Source of the DNA: Mucilaginibacter mallensis
Lineage (GTDB): Bacteria > Bacteroidota > Bacteroidia > Sphingobacteriales > Sphingobacteriaceae
Length of the DNA: 64,000 nucleotides
Reading direction: 5' to 3'
NCBI RefSeq assembly: GCF_900105165.1
Contig: NZ_LT629740.1
Coordinates: 248,001-312,000, forward strand
Shown piece by piece: positions 1-6,619 of the stretch (the stretch's first letter is position 1; every line of letters starts with the position of its first letter). A program made the translations under genes and the position numbers. The notes beneath the pieces are model-generated. The model was not told where the DNA came from, did no database searches, and saw nothing but the letters and a program-made list of their open reading frames with translations.

Positions 1-574
1 ATGCCCGTGCCGATTCCTTAACATCATGCTCGGTATAATTGCCCCGGCCAATGGTAAACAGTTCCATCAGCTCACGGGCAAAATTCTCATTAGGGTGCCC
101 TTTTTGATTTTGCTGATTATTTAAAAACTGTAGCATAGCCGGTGATTTGGATACCTCCATCACCATAGTGCGAAAATTACCCAGGGCATTGCTGCGCTGT
201 ATATTATTGAGTTGTTGAGCAAATGATGCACGGTTGCTGCGGCAGGCAAAATGGTTATGCCAAAATAGGGTCATCTTTTCCCTTAGCTGAGCATCGGTTT
301 TGCTCATTTTATCAATCCAGGCCAGGTTAAGATCTTTTTCCTGCTGACGCTGCTCCTGCAAAAATATTTTTTTGGCGCCGATGTCGCCTTTCATCAGCAT
401 GGTGTAATCGGTGCTATCCTTAATTATATCAATTGAATCGCTATTATCAGACGTTTTAAACAGTTGTTTAACTGTTGCTTTGGCGGTCAGGTGCTCGTCA
501 TCGCTTACATCCTCAAACCGCATCCCAAATGCTGCCCTTGTAAACAGGTGTTTTATTGGCTTAATGTTATCCAT
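1..574 (-). CDS. DUF1800 family protein, N-terminal part (runs off window)
   Basis: The reverse strand is open from an ATG at 574 to the window edge, about 191 codons. The translation begins MDNIKPIKHLFTRAAFG and later shows LFWHNHFA and NENFARELMELFTIGRG. These are the recognisable blocks of DUF1800, a family of unknown biochemical role that in Bacteroidota often lies next to a DUF1501 gene. The C-terminal half and any partner gene are outside the window. It is divergent from the DUF3857 gene at 710, with about 135 bp between the two starts. Family assignment is good; function is unknown. Confidence 0.8.
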   Translation of the reverse strand, partial: MDNIKPIKHLFTRAAFGMRFEDVSDDEHLTAKATVKQLFKTSDNSDSIDIIKDSTDYTMLMKGDIGAKKIFLQEQRQQEKDLNLAWIDKMSKTDAQLREKMTLFWHNHFACRSNRASFAQQLNNIQRSNALGNFRTMVMEVSKSPAMLQFLNNQQNQKGHPNENFARELMELFTIGRGNYTEHDVKESARA

Positions 575-709: not shown

Positions 710-2656
710 ATGAATAAGATTTTTGCGCTGTTAGCGCTAAGCATATTTACATTGTTTGTTAAGGCGCAAACCCCTAAAGCACCAACACAAACAATATCAA
801 CAAAAGAAAGCCAGTTAAAGAAGGAAAGCCTGCCGGTAAAGGAAGGCCAGCCATATGGCAAGGTAGATACCGCCGACCTTGAACTCAAAAGCTGTGATTT
901 TGAAAAGGATGCCAATGCCATGGTGCTTTTTGATAAGGCTGAAGTATCATTTGACCCCTATGGCGAGATCACTTTTATACGCCATAAAAGGATCAAGATA
1001 TTTAATGACAAGGGGAAAGACCAAGCCAATATAAACATACCCTATATTGACGGTATGCACGGTGTTGAGGCTGAGACAATAAATCTTAACGGCAATACTA
1101 TAGAATATATCCCGGTTGATGATAAACTCATTTATAAGGAAAAGATTAACAAATACCACCGGTCGTTGATCCTTACATTCCCAGGCGTAAAGCCCGGGTC
1201 TATTATTGAACTGAAATATAAATGGACAATACGTTCCTTCCTTTTACCGGCATGGGAGTTTCAATCAGAAATTCCAACACGCTACTCGGAACTTGATATT
1301 ACAATAGCTAAAGAAAATCGTATTGCTATAGTCTTTAAGATAAGCCAGGATTTCTCGAAGAAAATTGATGAGGATGTGATTTTTAGAGGCAGAAGAACAG
1401 TACGGGCGCTATCAAATATACATTCATTTAAAGTAGAGCCTTATATGACCCCTATTGAAGACAACTTGCAAAGGGCTCAATTTAAACCCTACAGCTTTCT
1501 TTGGCCAGCAATTAGTAAGGAACTGATATATGATGATGATTTTGGTAAACAACTAAACCAAAAGTTAAACGATGAAAAAGCGATACTAGCAAAGATTGAT
1601 TCCATTAAGAGCGAAAAGCTTAAGGTAGATTCTATTTTTAATATAGTAAAAAACAGGATGGTATGGGATAAAAAAGACCGCTGGTTTACTAATGTAGGGG
1701 TGCAAAAGGCCTGGGATAAAAAGACCGGAAATTCTGCTGAAATTAACCTGATATTATACCATTTACTGGTAAAGGCAGGTATAAAAGCATATCCAATGGT
1801 TGTAAGCACCCCCGATAATGGTATTATTGACCCAGACTATCCTGACCTAGCGCAATTTAATAAGGTGGTGGTTTATATACAGCGGGATAGCACGAAACAT
1901 TATATACTTGATGCTACAGGTAAATATAGCATATATAACCAAATACCTTATGAATTATTGAGCTCATATGGTTTTTTGGTAGCCCCTAAAACAGGTAATA
2001 ATATATTATTTAATATTCAATGTGATACCGCATCAGCCCAATTGGTTTTTGTAAATGCTGATATAAAATCAGAAGGCAAAATGAGCGGAACGGCCGACAT
2101 CGTAAGCAATGGTTATAACAAGGTAAATAGCCTGAAATTATATGACGACCTGGGCGAGAAGAAATATATTGATAATCTTACCGATGCTGATAACAACCTG
2201 AAAATATCATCGCTTAAACTGGAAAATCAGCATAGCGATACCTTGTCATTAGAGCAGCATATTAACTTCGATCTTAATTTATCAGCCTCTGATAATAACT
2301 ACATTTATTTTAATCCTAATTTGTTTACCTTATTTGGTACTAATCCCTTTTTAAGCGAAGACAGGTATAGTAATATTGATTTTATTTTCAAAAATAATGT
2401 TTACATAAGCGGTGTATACAAAATACCTGATGGTTACAAAGTTGATGTTTTGCCACAAAACCAGATAATGAGTACAGAGGATAAAGGCCTGATTTTTAAA
2501 AGGATCATAGGTGAACAGGACGGGAATGTATTGGTGCGCTATATTATATCCAGAAAAAGGACCCGTTACACAAAGGAAGAATATCATGAATTGTACCAGT
2601 TCTATAAAAAAATGTTCGAAATGCTCAATGAGCAAATTGTATTGAAGAAGTCGTAG
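710..2656 (+). CDS. Secreted DUF3857/transglutaminase-like protein, copy 1 (catalytic residues lost)
   Basis: The protein has 648 residues. It opens with a signal peptide (about 1-19, ending VKAQ), followed by a DUF3857 domain (about 60-270), a transglutaminase-like core (about 290-410) and a beta-rich C-terminal part. It is probably exported to the periplasm or cell surface. Aligned by eye with the third paralogue (4677-6608), the catalytic Cys is Ser342 in the motif GNSAEI and the catalytic His is Lys385 in QFNK. Only the Asp (D401 in YILDA) remains, so it is unlikely to be a working transglutaminase or protease. It is the first of three head-to-tail paralogues, 35 bp before the next. The role of the family is not established; binding of a glycan or peptide is one possibility. 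Confidence 0.85.
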   Translation: MNKIFALLALSIFTLFVKAQTPKAPTQTISTKESQLKKESLPVKEGQPYGKVDTADLELKSCDFEKDANAMVLFDKAEVSFDPYGEITFIRHKRIKIFNDKGKDQANINIPYIDGMHGVEAETINLNGNTIEYIPVDDKLIYKEKINKYHRSLILTFPGVKPGSIIELKYKWTIRSFLLPAWEFQSEIPTRYSELDITIAKENRIAIVFKISQDFSKKIDEDVIFRGRRTVRALSNIHSFKVEPYMTPIEDNLQRAQFKPYSFLWPAISKELIYDDDFGKQLNQKLNDEKAILAKIDSIKSEKLKVDSIFNIVKNRMVWDKKDRWFTNVGVQKAWDKKTGNSAEINLILYHLLVKAGIKAYPMVVSTPDNGIIDPDYPDLAQFNKVVVYIQRDSTKHYILDATGKYSIYNQIPYELLSSYGFLVAPKTGNNILFNIQCDTASAQLVFVNADIKSEGKMSGTADIVSNGYNKVNSLKLYDDLGEKKYIDNLTDADNNLKISSLKLENQHSDTLSLEQHINFDLNLSASDNNYIYFNPNLFTLFGTNPFLSEDRYSNIDFIFKNNVYISGVYKIPDGYKVDVLPQNQIMSTEDKGLIFKRIIGEQDGNVLVRYIISRKRTRYTKEEYHELYQFYKKMFEMLNEQIVLKKS

Positions 2657-2691
2657 CTATTATTATATTTATACTGATTAAACCTTATCCA

Positions 2692-4665
2692 ATGAATAAA
2701 TTTTTTACCCTGATTGCGTTATTTGCAATTGCCTTTTCTGCTAAAGCACAGCAAGTAACCCCCGTTTATGAGCCTTATGGCAAGGTTAGTAACGAAGACC
2801 TGGCGATGAAAGCCTGCGACTTTGACAAAGATGCTAATGCCGAGATCCTGATCCGCAAAGGTGACCAGTATTATGATCAGAATCTTAATATTATTATGGA
2901 TTATCATGAACGTATTAAGATTTTCAATGATGAGGGAAAGGACAAGGCAAACATCAGGATAGAATATTATTCAATTGATAACTACGAATATATTACAGGC
3001 ATACAGGCCGAAACTATAAACATGGTTGATGGCAAACAGGAAATTACCAAACTGGATAAGAAACTGATATATAAACAAACAGTTGATAAGTACAGGAGTG
3101 TTATAACCTTTACTATGCCTAACGTTAAGGCAGGTTCAATTATTGAATATAAGTATACCTTTAATACAGCCTCGGCTGAAAATATACCTACATGGTATTT
3201 CCAGGACAATGTACCCATCAGGTATGGAGAATATATGACTAATATTCCTGAATGGTTTTTCTTCTCAACGCAAACACATATGCACTCCATGTATACAAAA
3301 CGTACCAGCACAAATGGTACCGGGAACATAACGATTGATCATAGCCCAATCTCCTACACGTCGGCAATAGAAGACAGGGTACTGGTTAATGAACCGGCCC
3401 TGCGTGATGAGCCCTATATGAGCTCAAGAAATGATAACCTGGAATGCGTGCTCTTTAACCTCACATCATTCAGGCCACCCTACGGATTTGTTCAGAATTT
3501 TTCTGAAACGTGGGCAAAAGTTGGTGAAAAGCTTAGCGCGAACGAGGATTTTGGTGGTCAGTTTAAAAGAAAATTAACAAACGAGGATGCGATAATTGAA
3601 AAGGCCAAAGCACTTAAAACTGACGATGAAAAGATAGCCTATCTTTTTAAGGAAGTGCAAAATGATATGAAGTGGAACGAAGAGGATGATTGGTATACCA
3701 ATGATGGCACTTGCAAAGCGTGGGATAGCAAAACAGGTAATTCAACCGAAATTAACCTAATACTATACCATTTGCTTAAAAAGTCGGGCGTTAAGGCCTT
3801 GCCAATGGTTGTAAGTACGCGTAAACACGGCAAGGTAAACCCGGTTTTCTCTTATGTATACCAATTTAACCGTGCTGTAGTATATATACCTGTTGATAGT
3901 ACTAAAAGCTACATACTTGATGCCAGTAGCAAGTATAATATGTATAATGAAATTCCTTATAATCTTCTGAATTCATCGGGCTTATATGTAAACAGCGATC
4001 TGAAAGATTATGAACTGGTTTTCCTGAATAAACAAGCACCTGTACGCACATCGATATTTATAACTGCCGATATAAAACCTGATGGGAAAGTAAATGGCAC
4101 AGCGCAATTAAGCAGTTATAGCTATGGCCGTATAGATGGTATTAAACGCTATAAAACAGATGGGGAGAAAAAATATATCGACTATTTAAGGGATGATGAT
4201 AATAATTTAAAAATAGCATCACTTAAAATGGATAATATGGATGTTGATACCTTGCCATTGATGCAGAGTATTAATTTTAATCTTGACCTTGCCGGCTCTG
4301 ATGAAAACTACATTTATTTTAATCCAAACCTGTTTACATCGTTACATAAAAATCCTTTTTTAAGCGATACGCGCACCACTGATATTGATTTTGGCTACCT
4401 GGATAATCTTACACTTAACGGTATGTATAAAGTGCCGGCAGGTTATAAGATTGATGCCTTGCCTAAAAACGTCAGCATGACCACGCCCGATAATGGAATT
4501 ACCTTCAGGCGCTTTATAGCTGAACAGGATGGCACCATAGCTGTGCGCTATACCATAAGTTATAAAAAGAGCATCTATTTTAAAGAGAATTATGCCGATT
4601 TTCATGAGTTTTTTAAGAAGATGTATGAAATGCTGAATGAACAAATAGTGCTTAAAAAATCCTGA
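2692..4665 (+). CDS. Secreted DUF3857/transglutaminase-like protein, copy 2 (catalytic residues lost)
   Basis: This 657-residue protein is a close paralogue of the gene before it. They share the signal peptide plan, the DUF3857 domain, the YxNDGTCKAWDSKTGNS region and a nearly identical C-terminus (MLNEQIVLKKS in both). The transglutaminase Cys position is Ser351 (GNSTEI) and the His position is Arg394 (QFNR), with Asp410 kept, so it is predicted to be catalytically dead. Its 5' leader also resembles that of copy 1, which points to a tandem duplication that included the upstream region. It ends 11 bp before the third paralogue, so co-transcription is likely. Function is unknown. Confidence 0.85.
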   Translation: MNKFFTLIALFAIAFSAKAQQVTPVYEPYGKVSNEDLAMKACDFDKDANAEILIRKGDQYYDQNLNIIMDYHERIKIFNDEGKDKANIRIEYYSIDNYEYITGIQAETINMVDGKQEITKLDKKLIYKQTVDKYRSVITFTMPNVKAGSIIEYKYTFNTASAENIPTWYFQDNVPIRYGEYMTNIPEWFFFSTQTHMHSMYTKRTSTNGTGNITIDHSPISYTSAIEDRVLVNEPALRDEPYMSSRNDNLECVLFNLTSFRPPYGFVQNFSETWAKVGEKLSANEDFGGQFKRKLTNEDAIIEKAKALKTDDEKIAYLFKEVQNDMKWNEEDDWYTNDGTCKAWDSKTGNSTEINLILYHLLKKSGVKALPMVVSTRKHGKVNPVFSYVYQFNRAVVYIPVDSTKSYILDASSKYNMYNEIPYNLLNSSGLYVNSDLKDYELVFLNKQAPVRTSIFITADIKPDGKVNGTAQLSSYSYGRIDGIKRYKTDGEKKYIDYLRDDDNNLKIASLKMDNMDVDTLPLMQSINFNLDLAGSDENYIYFNPNLFTSLHKNPFLSDTRTTDIDFGYLDNLTLNGMYKVPAGYKIDALPKNVSMTTPDNGITFRRFIAEQDGTIAVRYTISYKKSIYFKENYADFHEFFKKMYEMLNEQIVLKKS

Positions 4666-4676
4666 TAATTACTGTT

Positions 4677-6608
4677 ATGCGTAAATTTTTAAATGGCTTG
4701 TTGTTAACAGTTGTTCTGGCAGGTGTTGTTGGCACTAAGGGCAATTGCCAGGATGTTATTCCGAAGGAATTTTATACTGCCGCGGGTATACCCGATTCTT
4801 TAAAAGAGGATGCTAATTCAATTGTACGTTACTCAATTGACGAAGTAACCATAAAAGGGCCGGGCGAAGCAGTAGTTAAACACCATAGTCTGATTACCAT
4901 TTTGAATGAAAAAGGCGATGACGAAGCTAACATACGATACACCTATAATAAAAAGTATGATACTTATAGTTTTATAGATGTGCGTGCCTTTGATGCAAAT
5001 GGGGTGCAGGTAAAAAAGTATCACAAAAGCGACTTTTATGATTATGCACTCATAGGTGGTTGGGATGTAGCCAATGATGAGCGTTACCTCGACCTTAAGC
5101 ATACTGTAGCAAGTTACCCAACAACAATTGAGGTGGAGTATGAAGAGGATATAAGTAGTTTTATAAGTCTGGATAATTGGTATATACAAAATATAGAGCA
5201 ATCGGTACAAAATGAAACCTATAAGGTGCTGGCTAAACCGGCTATAGGCTTCAGGTATAAATACACTAACATTAAGCTTAACGCTGAGAAAGGCAAGGCT
5301 GATGATTATGATACCTACACTTGGCAGGTGAAAAATTTAAAGGCCATTAAAAAGGAGGAGAATGTTTTAATGACCTCAGTAATTCCCTTCGTTTCATTTG
5401 GCACAAATGCTTTTAATTGCGATGGTTATCCGGGCAATATAAGTACATGGCAGGATTATGGCAAATGGGTATATGGCTTAAATAAGGATGTTTGTACGCT
5501 AAGCCCGCAACGCGTAGCTGAAATAAGAAAAATGACCGATACCATTAAAACGGATAAAGAGAAAGCGAAGTTTTTATATCAGTATTTACAACAAAATACA
5601 CGTTATGTAAGTGTACAATTAGGAATTGGGGGTTGGAAACCGTTTGATGCCAATTTTGTGGATACCAAAAAGTATGGTGATTGTAAAGCGCTGGCCAATT
5701 ATATGTATGCTTTGTTAAAGGCTGTAAATATCCCGTCTTATTGGGCGGTGGTGTACGCTGGTTTTAACGGACTATCATCAGATCCTGCTTTTCCGAAAAA
5801 TCAGTTTAACCATGAAATTTTGTGCATTCCATTTAAAAATGATACTACCTGGCTTGATTGCACCATGACTACCCGGCAATTTGGCCAGCCGGGGCCATTT
5901 ACTGAAAACCGTAATGCGCTGCTGATTACAGAAGATGGCGGTAAACTGGTAAACACACCTAAGAGTAAACCCGAAGATAACCAGTTTAACAGCGAAGTGC
6001 ACGTTGTGCTTGATGCTGATGGCGGGGCCAAAGCGCAGGTGAAAATTTTAAGCACAGGTGAGTACAGGGAAGAATACATCCAAATGGGATATAAAAAACA
6101 GGATGAGCAAAAGGATGATCTGTTAAATGATCTTAGCATGAGGCAGCCTTCAGTCTTTAATTTTCAATATGGTAATGATAAAGATGGAATTAAGGAATTA
6201 GACCTGAACCTGGAATATGACAAACTATATGATATTGCCTCCGGCGACAAACAGTTTTATCATACCAATATTTTTGAATTGTGGAATTTAACAGTACCTA
6301 TATCAGAAAAAAGAAAAAGTGATTATTGCTTTGATTTTCCAAGGATAAAAACCTGCGTAACCACCATCGATCTGCCTGTTGGCTTTGAGGTAGAAACCTT
6401 GCCTGCTAACCAGCATCTGAAATTTACTTATGGTGATTATGACATAAAATTTGTTTATGATGCGGCTAAAAACCAAGTGGTCAGCACCGCTAAATTTAAT
6501 TTAGCAAACCAGGTTATACCGGCTGCAAAATATACCGAAATGCAGCAATACATGGATGCCATTGCCAAAGCGCAAAATAAAAAGCTGGTAATACATCGCA
6601 AGGCGTAA
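4677..6608 (+). CDS. Secreted DUF3857/transglutaminase protein, copy 3 (catalytic triad intact)
   Basis: The protein has 643 residues with a signal peptide (about 1-24, ending KGNCQ), a DUF3857 domain and a transglutaminase-like core. Unlike its two upstream neighbours it keeps the full triad: Cys336 in YGDCKALA, His379 in QFNHE and Asp394 in WLDCT. It is therefore the only member of this trio likely to have cysteine-hydrolase or transglutaminase-type activity. It is more diverged from copies 1 and 2 than they are from each other. It lies 11 bp after copy 2 and 11 bp before the aat start, so all four genes may share a transcript. The substrate is unknown. Confidence 0.85.
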   Translation: MRKFLNGLLLTVVLAGVVGTKGNCQDVIPKEFYTAAGIPDSLKEDANSIVRYSIDEVTIKGPGEAVVKHHSLITILNEKGDDEANIRYTYNKKYDTYSFIDVRAFDANGVQVKKYHKSDFYDYALIGGWDVANDERYLDLKHTVASYPTTIEVEYEEDISSFISLDNWYIQNIEQSVQNETYKVLAKPAIGFRYKYTNIKLNAEKGKADDYDTYTWQVKNLKAIKKEENVLMTSVIPFVSFGTNAFNCDGYPGNISTWQDYGKWVYGLNKDVCTLSPQRVAEIRKMTDTIKTDKEKAKFLYQYLQQNTRYVSVQLGIGGWKPFDANFVDTKKYGDCKALANYMYALLKAVNIPSYWAVVYAGFNGLSSDPAFPKNQFNHEILCIPFKNDTTWLDCTMTTRQFGQPGPFTENRNALLITEDGGKLVNTPKSKPEDNQFNSEVHVVLDADGGAKAQVKILSTGEYREEYIQMGYKKQDEQKDDLLNDLSMRQPSVFNFQYGNDKDGIKELDLNLEYDKLYDIASGDKQFYHTNIFELWNLTVPISEKRKSDYCFDFPRIKTCVTTIDLPVGFEVETLPANQHLKFTYGDYDIKFVYDAAKNQVVSTAKFNLANQVIPAAKYTEMQQYMDAIAKAQNKKLVIHRKA

Positions 6609-6619
6609 ATTTGCTCCTG

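Follow-up and report, generated by a model that had tools for sequence, protein, structure and literature searches.

Why should a bacterium keep, in one tandem array, an apparently intact transglutaminase-like gene and two paralogues from which the catalytic cysteine and histidine are missing? The question is raised by three genes near the start of a 64,000-nucleotide (nt) stretch of the Mucilaginibacter mallensis genome (contig NZ_LT629740.1, positions 248,001 to 312,000 of the forward strand), which is referred to here as the window. An earlier note on this DNA had described the three products as exported DUF3857/transglutaminase-type proteins, only the third of which carries a Cys-His-Asp triad, and had proposed that they form a dedicated module. 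We designate the active type A and the Cys-less type P; copies 1 and 2 fall within clade P and copy 3 within clade A. Because A was not found without P in the sampled genomes, the comparisons described below suggest that the Cys-less sisters, which stand beside such a gene in many Bacteroidota, are working partners of an exported enzyme rather than debris. The genes and the residues in question are as follows, with coordinates given in the window.

710..2656, + strand: copy 1 (P type), 648 amino acids (aa), DUF3857/transglutaminase fold without catalytic Cys and His, predicted to be exported
1733..1735, + strand: Ser342 codon of copy 1, at the catalytic Cys position (codon read and alignment column)
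1862..1864, + strand: Lys385 codon of copy 1, at the catalytic His position (codon read and alignment column)
1910..1912, + strand: Asp401 codon of copy 1, the retained acid (codon read and alignment column)
2692..4665, + strand: copy 2 (P type), 657 aa, DUF3857/transglutaminase fold without catalytic Cys and His, predicted to be exported
3742..3744, + strand: Ser351 codon of copy 2, at the catalytic Cys position (model, alignment column and codon)
3871..3873, + strand: Arg394 codon of copy 2, at the catalytic His position (model, alignment column and codon)
3919..3921, + strand: Asp410 codon of copy 2, the retained acid (model, alignment column and codon)
4677..6608, + strand: copy 3 (A type), 643 aa, DUF3857/transglutaminase fold with the Cys-His-Asp triad intact, predicted to be exported
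5682..5684, + strand: Cys336 codon of copy 3, catalytic (model, alignment column and codon)
5811..5813, + strand: His379 codon of copy 3, catalytic (model, alignment column and codon)
5856..5858, + strand: Asp394 codon of copy 3, third triad residue (model, codon and clade counts)

The three genes share one strand and are separated by 35 nt (copies 1 and 2) and 11 nt (copies 2 and 3). Copies 1 and 2 are 47% identical to each other, and either is approximately 17–22% identical to copy 3. All nine codons match the residues that the earlier note had aligned by eye, with Cys336-His379-Asp394 in copy 3 and, in columns that align with these, Ser342/Lys385/Asp401 in copy 1 and Ser351/Arg394/Asp410 in copy 2. 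Alignment with Pfam models, a check that the note had proposed, gave DUF3857 (PF12969) scores of 35.6, 40.1 and 67.8 bits for copies 1, 2 and 3, all above the cut-off of 24.6, and a Transglut_core (PF01841) match above the cut-off of 23 for copy 3 alone (30.7 bits); copies 1 and 2 gave no Transglut_core match at E<=1. Among relatives in the Cys-less clade, some pass the latter cut-off (L036, 32.6 bits; L043, 24.8; L086, 32.9) and others fall below it (L077, 20.0; L084, 20.7; L160, 22.7). For DUF3858 (PF12970; cut-off 27 bits), copies 2 and 3 remained below the cut-off (23.9 and 20.2 bits) and copy 1 gave no match, with the clade member L043 passing at 30.0 bits. A search of NCBIfam returned no family for any of the three proteins.

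The structural comparison that had also been suggested bears out these assignments. AlphaFold2 models of copies 2 and 3 (mean predicted local distance difference test scores of 92.6 and 90.1) place the triad positions equivalently, and the assignment for copy 1 comes from the alignment. Ser351 and Cys336 are each the first residue of a matching central helix (residues 351–364 in copy 2 and 336–349 in copy 3), Arg394 and His379 open a matching strand (394–400 and 379–386), and Asp410 and Asp394 lie just past the next strand (406–409 and 389–393). The model of copy 3 comprises a DUF3857 beta-domain, a transglutaminase-fold core and a C-terminal beta-domain. A single-sequence search of solved structures yielded nothing useful; profile searches found one DUF3857-type structure, BDI_1141 of Parabacteroides distasonis (PDB 3kd4), which scored 49.3 bits with A3 and 14.9 bits with A2. 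Over the whole length, the models of copies 2 and 3 match 3kd4 with Z scores of 19.7 and 25.9 and root-mean-square deviations (rmsd) of 5.0 and 3.7 for 484 and 489 aligned residues, respectively. The two cores match LapG (VIA-align) with Z scores of 11.3 and 11.8, an rmsd of 3.0, and 135 and 133 aligned residues; the core of copy 3 also matches TglA (Z 10.9) and 3isr (Z 10.5), and the N-terminal domain of copy 2 resembles the N-domains of Ost1/ribophorin I and M1 aminopeptidases (Z about 8–11.6). By alignment and model, copy 3 is a transglutaminase-like Cys-His-Asp protein, and copies 1 and 2 are filed here as putative Cys-less partners of the same fold.

We also looked for another Cys/His pair that could occupy the active site of copies 1 and 2, the outcome that the earlier note had singled out as fatal to its reading, and found no good candidate. 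The best-kept Cys or His of copies 1/2 within the clade, His92/His72, lies in the N-terminal domain (71 of 111 P sequences). In the core of copy 2, neither Cys341 nor His360 is among the commonest residues of its own column in the same 111 sequences, and the only other core histidine with some conservation, His379, falls in a column with His in 29 and Asn in 65 of them.

To place the three proteins within their family, we collected 80 loci from sampled genomes (20 + 60), stretches from the same genome, and 76 loci from named genomes, mostly of Mucilaginibacter but also of Pedobacter, Hufsiella, Niastella, Paraflavitalea and a Chitinophagaceae genome. From 385 family matches, 362 were counted, namely those of at least 400 aa and with more than 200 bits to a P or A profile; the other 23 are fragments and distant DUF3857 members (L009, a TPR fusion, L011, L020, L025, L089 and L090). 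Repeats account for 5 of the 232 P sequences and 2 of the 130 A sequences counted (L012/L146 and L017/L145 are duplicated, and L108 overlaps L137), and the pair at L071 (genome G134), which has no open-reading-frame rows, was judged from search positions. Cys and His are present in all 130 A sequences, the third residue being Glu in 122 and Asp in 8. A cysteine occurs at the catalytic position in none of the 232 P sequences, which carry Ser (148), Ala (21), Val (19), Ile (13), Gly (9), Gln (7) or, more rarely, Trp (5), Thr (4), Pro (3), Leu (1), Phe (1) or His (1). At the His position most P sequences have Arg (70), Tyr (47), Lys (32), His (23), Ser (17), Thr (13) or Asn (12), and at the third position they have Asp in 230 of 232. 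The loss of Cys in copies 1 and 2 is thus beyond chance (0/232 P versus 130/130 A). Twelve further loci add 12 P sequences without Cys and 9 A sequences with Cys, His and Glu, bringing the totals to Cys and His in 139 of 139 A sequences and Cys in 0 of 244 P sequences. The Asp at the third position of copy 3 is a minority state within its own clade, although Asp is usual in P.

A FastTree phylogeny of 131 P, 73 A and 5 other sequences puts P and A on the two sides of one branch with a support of 100. Because the P and A profiles were first built from sequences chosen by their triads, the split was re-tested independently on the domains flanking the transglutaminase core, where 29 P and 28 A sequences again separate (100/100). 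One distant member, L090, is a case against a naive profile cut, since it has Cys-His-Asp and falls with the active sequences in the tree, yet scores higher with the P profile (193.1 bits) than with the A profile (182.5). Many P sequences of the family coded f22, and a few others, have lost Cys alone and keep His and Asp, a pattern suggesting that Cys was lost first and His later. In these comparisons P stands out as an old Cys-less sister lineage of A. Five loci (L078, L082, L085, L087 and L088), from genomes in which A was not found, encode Cys-less proteins whose Cys position is occupied by Gln; the upstream gene that they have in common resembles a dihydroorotase gene.

The association of the two types was followed in a phylum sample of 198 genomes (A, >350 bits; P, >250 bits; at most six candidates scored per genome, so that misses are possible) and in an overlapping class sample of 247 genomes. 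The sampled genomes are related, and the counts are neither exhaustive nor independent; a Fisher test on the phylum sample therefore exaggerates how significant the association is. In the phylum sample A was detected in 51 genomes, P in 59 and neither in 139, and each of the 51 genomes with A also has P. At all 54 A places in these genomes a P gene lies on the same strand within 400 base pairs (bp), upstream in 39 and downstream in 15; this count begins from A matches, whereas the locus set behind the clade counts was picked by P matches. In the class sample, 24 of 24 A genomes also have P, and nine of the ten A places in nine genomes outside the phylum sample adjoin P. Families with A number 14 by their codes in the phylum sample and 19 with the class sample added. 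The earlier note had pointed to other Sphingobacteriaceae as the place to look for the trio. What recurs is the P-plus-A unit, in 14 family codes; the trio is no special feature of that family, and extra P copies are an expansion common in Mucilaginibacter.

The two types also differ in number. Every tandem run (single locus) with A holds exactly one A, accompanied by one P in 78 runs, two in 41, three in 4, four in 5 and none in 2; in the last two (L159 and L164) the neighboring P is split or cut off. These P numbers are lower bounds because loci stop at the ends of contigs or stretches. The longest run has seven P followed by one A and extends across overlapping loci on contig JABDHD010000004.1 (L137 4035 to L108 9907). 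Gap sizes are approximate because starts were taken as the first start codon of each frame; so measured, the P-A gap has a median of 2 nt (101 of 113 within −15 to 30 nt) and the P-P gap a median of 52.5 nt (22 of 72 within that range). Such short distances between P and A suggest that their synthesis is matched. In a simple hydropathy test, a signal-peptide-like hydrophobic segment was found at the N terminus of 226 of the 227 P sequences and all 129 A sequences of at least 600 aa, with a lipobox-like motif in only 27 and 16 of these, respectively, so that both types are predicted to be exported. With these N-terminal segments, the junctions, and the constant co-occurrence and adjacency of A and P, the proposal of a dedicated active/inactive exported module is well supported.

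Selection has acted on both types. Between the window and L091, the ratio of nonsynonymous to synonymous substitution rates (dN/dS) is 0.073 for copy 2 and 0.098 for copy 3. Other measurable P pairs give 0.048–0.104, with one at 0.213, and other A pairs 0.048–0.069, many pairs being saturated; P genes are under purifying selection. Around the former active site, P has a conserved pattern of its own. In copy 2 numbering, and over 111 P sequences, it includes Asn355 (94%), Ser375 (92%), Thr376 (84%), Arg377 (80%), Gly380 (98%) and Asp410 (98%), with Leu358, Phe392 and Asn393 also conserved in the cleft region. A sequences (68, in copy 3 numbering) conserve Gln305, Arg309, Tyr310, a Gly-rich loop at 316–319, Asp335, Cys336, Lys337, Asn341 and His379. 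We read the P pattern as that of a repurposed binding cleft.

From these observations, we consider that the three genes probably constitute an exported enzyme-pseudoenzyme unit in which P is the obligate partner of A. Copy 3 would be the catalytic subunit, expected to act on an amide bond of an exported substrate, by cleavage or by transfer. In copies 1 and 2, as descendants of an old Cys-less lineage, catalysis would have been replaced by the conserved cleft residues of their own. P is likely to be made with A from the same transcript and may bind A, the substrate of A, or both, and thereby position, activate or restrain A. The earlier note had suggested that the inactive copies serve in substrate binding or in control of the active one, which is a reasonable supposition. 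Because runs keep one A while P multiply, several Cys-less copies may also give one catalytic subunit several binding specificities.

Several observations weigh against an obligate partnership. P occurs without A in 8 of the 59 P genomes of the phylum sample, so some P proteins must act without an A enzyme, and it occurs alone in 2 of the 26 P genomes of the class sample, namely G306 and one of the eight just counted, G068. In genome G233 one A gene is not beside P, which lies elsewhere in the genome. Of the three proteins, copy 1 has diverged furthest, its best relative among its eight top matches being 49.4% identical, and this want of a close relative points to faster turnover and to P copies that are not all stably kept; split frames likewise mark broken P copies in relatives (L061, L116, L158 and L159). 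Rate covariation is not a decisive guide here: over 54 loci the partial correlation between P and A is 0.37, compared with 0.43 between A and a RuvC-like neighbor.

Four other explanations deserve to be set against the enzyme-pseudoenzyme unit. P proteins could be enzymes of another kind, in which new residues (Asp/Glu353, Asn355, Ser375-Thr376-Arg377 and Asp410 in copy 2 numbering) perform different chemistry, with A acting in the same pathway. Such enzymes would account for the strong P-specific conservation around the old active site, for purifying selection on P like that on A, and for the eight genomes in which P persists without A. However, P lacks a conserved nucleophile, its core has gained no widely conserved Cys or His, and a binding cleft would give an equal pattern, which leaves this explanation unlikely. 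Nor is it probable that P is an inhibitor or decoy, holding the enzyme off until it is in place rather than helping it. The one-way co-occurrence, in which A is not found without P, fits an enzyme that is harmful alone, and the tight P-A junctions would suit an inhibitor as well, but a mere inhibitor would not be expected to multiply without its enzyme (up to seven P to one A) or to survive where A is absent.

The view that tandem duplication left the inactive copies behind as non-functional relics draws on the divergence of copy 1 and the broken copies in relatives, but it was rejected as very improbable given one old split kept across 19 family codes and supported on the flanking domains, dN/dS of 0.05–0.10 in all but one measurable P pair (0.21), full-length frames with their own conserved motif, and pairing at 54 of 54 places. 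That Ser stands in for Cys and keeps copies 1 and 2 active, as a Ser-His-Asp or Ser-Lys variant, is equally hard to credit and was rejected because the Cys position varies freely within the clade: Ser is the commonest substitute (148/232) and His is kept in 23 of 232 sequences, but eleven other residues fill the Cys position in the remaining 84, and the His position is mostly Arg, Tyr, Lys, Ser, Thr or Asn.

Distant members of the family repeat the arrangement. At L011 (4471-8374) and L020 (4111-7994), an active C-H-D gene is followed by a Cys-less gene, and we refer to these types as A2 and P2. In the 198 genomes, A2 was found in 12 and P2 in 9 (cut-offs of E 1e-60 and 1e-30, respectively). 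All 12 A2 sequences have C-H-D, and a gene of the P2 kind lies immediately downstream in 11 of the 12 (G014 included; L197-L206 among the loci), of which 8 are clear and 3 (L204, L205 and L206, at 54.7–62.3 bits to P2) are tentative, the assignment of their catalytic columns being unsure; in G225, A2 and P2 are on separate contigs. In the tree, the Cys-less P2 sequences group with P and the A2 sequences with the active side (94/98, not starred). This placement would fit a single ancient loss of Cys, after which two pairings arose, although long-branch attraction may possibly lie behind the grouping. Allowing for the three tentative cases, the second subfamily appears to show the same design of an enzyme with a Cys-less neighbor.

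Within the M. mallensis genome, a second tandem pair lies elsewhere and consists of a Cys-less gene (GNVAEIN, FNY) followed by an active one (GDC, GNH). The genome also encodes a longer fusion protein with Cys and His, which we take to be a TPR fusion, the label being our own. The best match to copy 2 among the named genomes, at 82%, is in a metagenome-assembled genome labeled M. xinganensis. Just 5′ of the ATG codons of copies 1 and 2, the sequence GATTAAACCT is common to both sites (window about 696-712 and 2676-2694), which would fit duplication of the upstream sequence together with the gene. A Bacteroidetes-type promoter pattern, applied as a regular expression, had no match in 575-709.

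Upstream of the trio lie genes for proteins of the DUF1800 and DUF1501 families, placed as follows.

2..574, − strand: start of a DUF1800 gene, which runs divergently from copy 1 at a distance of 135 bp; linked neighbor
Beyond the window (L010 6451-10298): a second DUF1800 gene and a DUF1501 gene, divergent from the trio

Of the neighbors analyzed, the DUF1800-DUF1501 pair alone was conspicuous, in two lineages. Within the fetched stretch around the cluster, DUF1800/DUF1501 genes were present at 34 of 76 loci of named genomes and 10 of 75 other loci, and they are divergent and immediately upstream in the window, at L012 and L143, and at eight f22 loci. DUF1800 is present in 20 of 26 genomes checked, never in more than two copies, and lies beside the cluster in ten of the 20 (G000, G014 and eight of f22). 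Against any generality of this link, DUF1800 is not adjacent in the others, lying a few kilobases (kb) downstream of a lone P in G081, about 11 kb away in G060 and elsewhere in the rest, and six of the 26 genomes have A/P without DUF1800. In a DUF1800 tree the linked genes of f1 and of f22 belong to separate clades, and unlinked genes fall between them; the linkage therefore probably had two origins. Among the f22 DUF1501 proteins, one has a type IX sorting domain. DUF1800 may belong to the module, and both families could be functionally tied to the enzyme. DUF1800 and DUF1501 have been described beside bacterial chitin synthase genes (PMC5122149).

Directly after copy 3, at position 6611, an Aat-like gene starts. 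The Aat-like and RuvC-like genes downstream in Mucilaginibacter and other recurring f22 neighbors were set aside, as they look like plain within-family gene order.

A broader picture can be sketched, tentatively and with considerable doubt, in which Bacteroidota possess exported systems of one catalyst and many adaptors. The Cys-less paralogues would be exchangeable recognition subunits, two subfamilies would each have a cognate Cys-less lineage, and the main one would be tied to DUF1800-DUF1501 surface proteins that the enzyme modifies or installs. The pairing itself can be read in 19 family codes by one rule, that A is not found without P, and it appears in two subfamilies; the runs of one A with one to seven P amount to a natural experiment on gene dosage. 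Many proteins labeled 'DUF3857' thereby acquire a testable role, and two families of unknown function, DUF1800 and DUF1501, a possible link to an enzyme. For the Cys-less members, apparently with 3kd4 among them, names based on fold, such as 'putative protease' or 'transglutaminase domain protein', are misleading.

How does this arrangement compare with known systems? Our search of the literature for DUF3858 found no paper, and that on inactive or pseudoenzyme bacterial transglutaminases found no description of a P-A system; most subscription papers fell outside these searches, and a prior description is possible. In the literature so searched DUF3857 turned up in one paper, as a neighbor of lolA (PMC6341742). 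The closest structural counterpart, 3kd4, a 'putative protease', has the same three-domain build as copies 2 and 3. Its profile score is closer to the active type, yet a Pro (YGTPLEI) is aligned at the Cys of the active clade, in a weak stretch of alignment (7.0 bits), so that 3kd4 also appears to be without a nucleophile.

LapG, 3isr of C. hutchinsonii, TglA of S. pyogenes and mammalian TG2, TG3 and factor XIII share the core fold with copies 2 and 3. The Cys-His-Asp/Glu triad is usual for the transglutaminase superfamily (PMC4866520); copy 3 has it, and copies 1 and 2 do not (Ser/Lys/Asp and Ser/Arg/Asp). Unlike these transglutaminase-like enzymes, the trio flanks the core with DUF3857 and C-terminal domains, two of its members (copies 1 and 2) lack Cys and His, and the genes form a fixed tandem with an inactive paralogue. 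Transglutaminase/papain-like folds without catalytic residues are reported, in the accessible text of two papers, for protein 4.2 (EPB42), Rad4/XPC, human menin, FBXO21 and RloB of Pseudomonas, the last fused to seven membrane helices and encoded beside aspartic protease and ATP-grasp genes (PMC10318531; PMC12239564). In that text no tandem with an active paralogue of its own is described for any of the five, in contrast to the P-A unit. As in enzyme-pseudoenzyme pairs whose paralogues are kept together across lineages, P accompanies A in 51 of 51 genomes and at 54 of 54 places of the phylum sample, with G233 of the class sample as the exception to adjacency.

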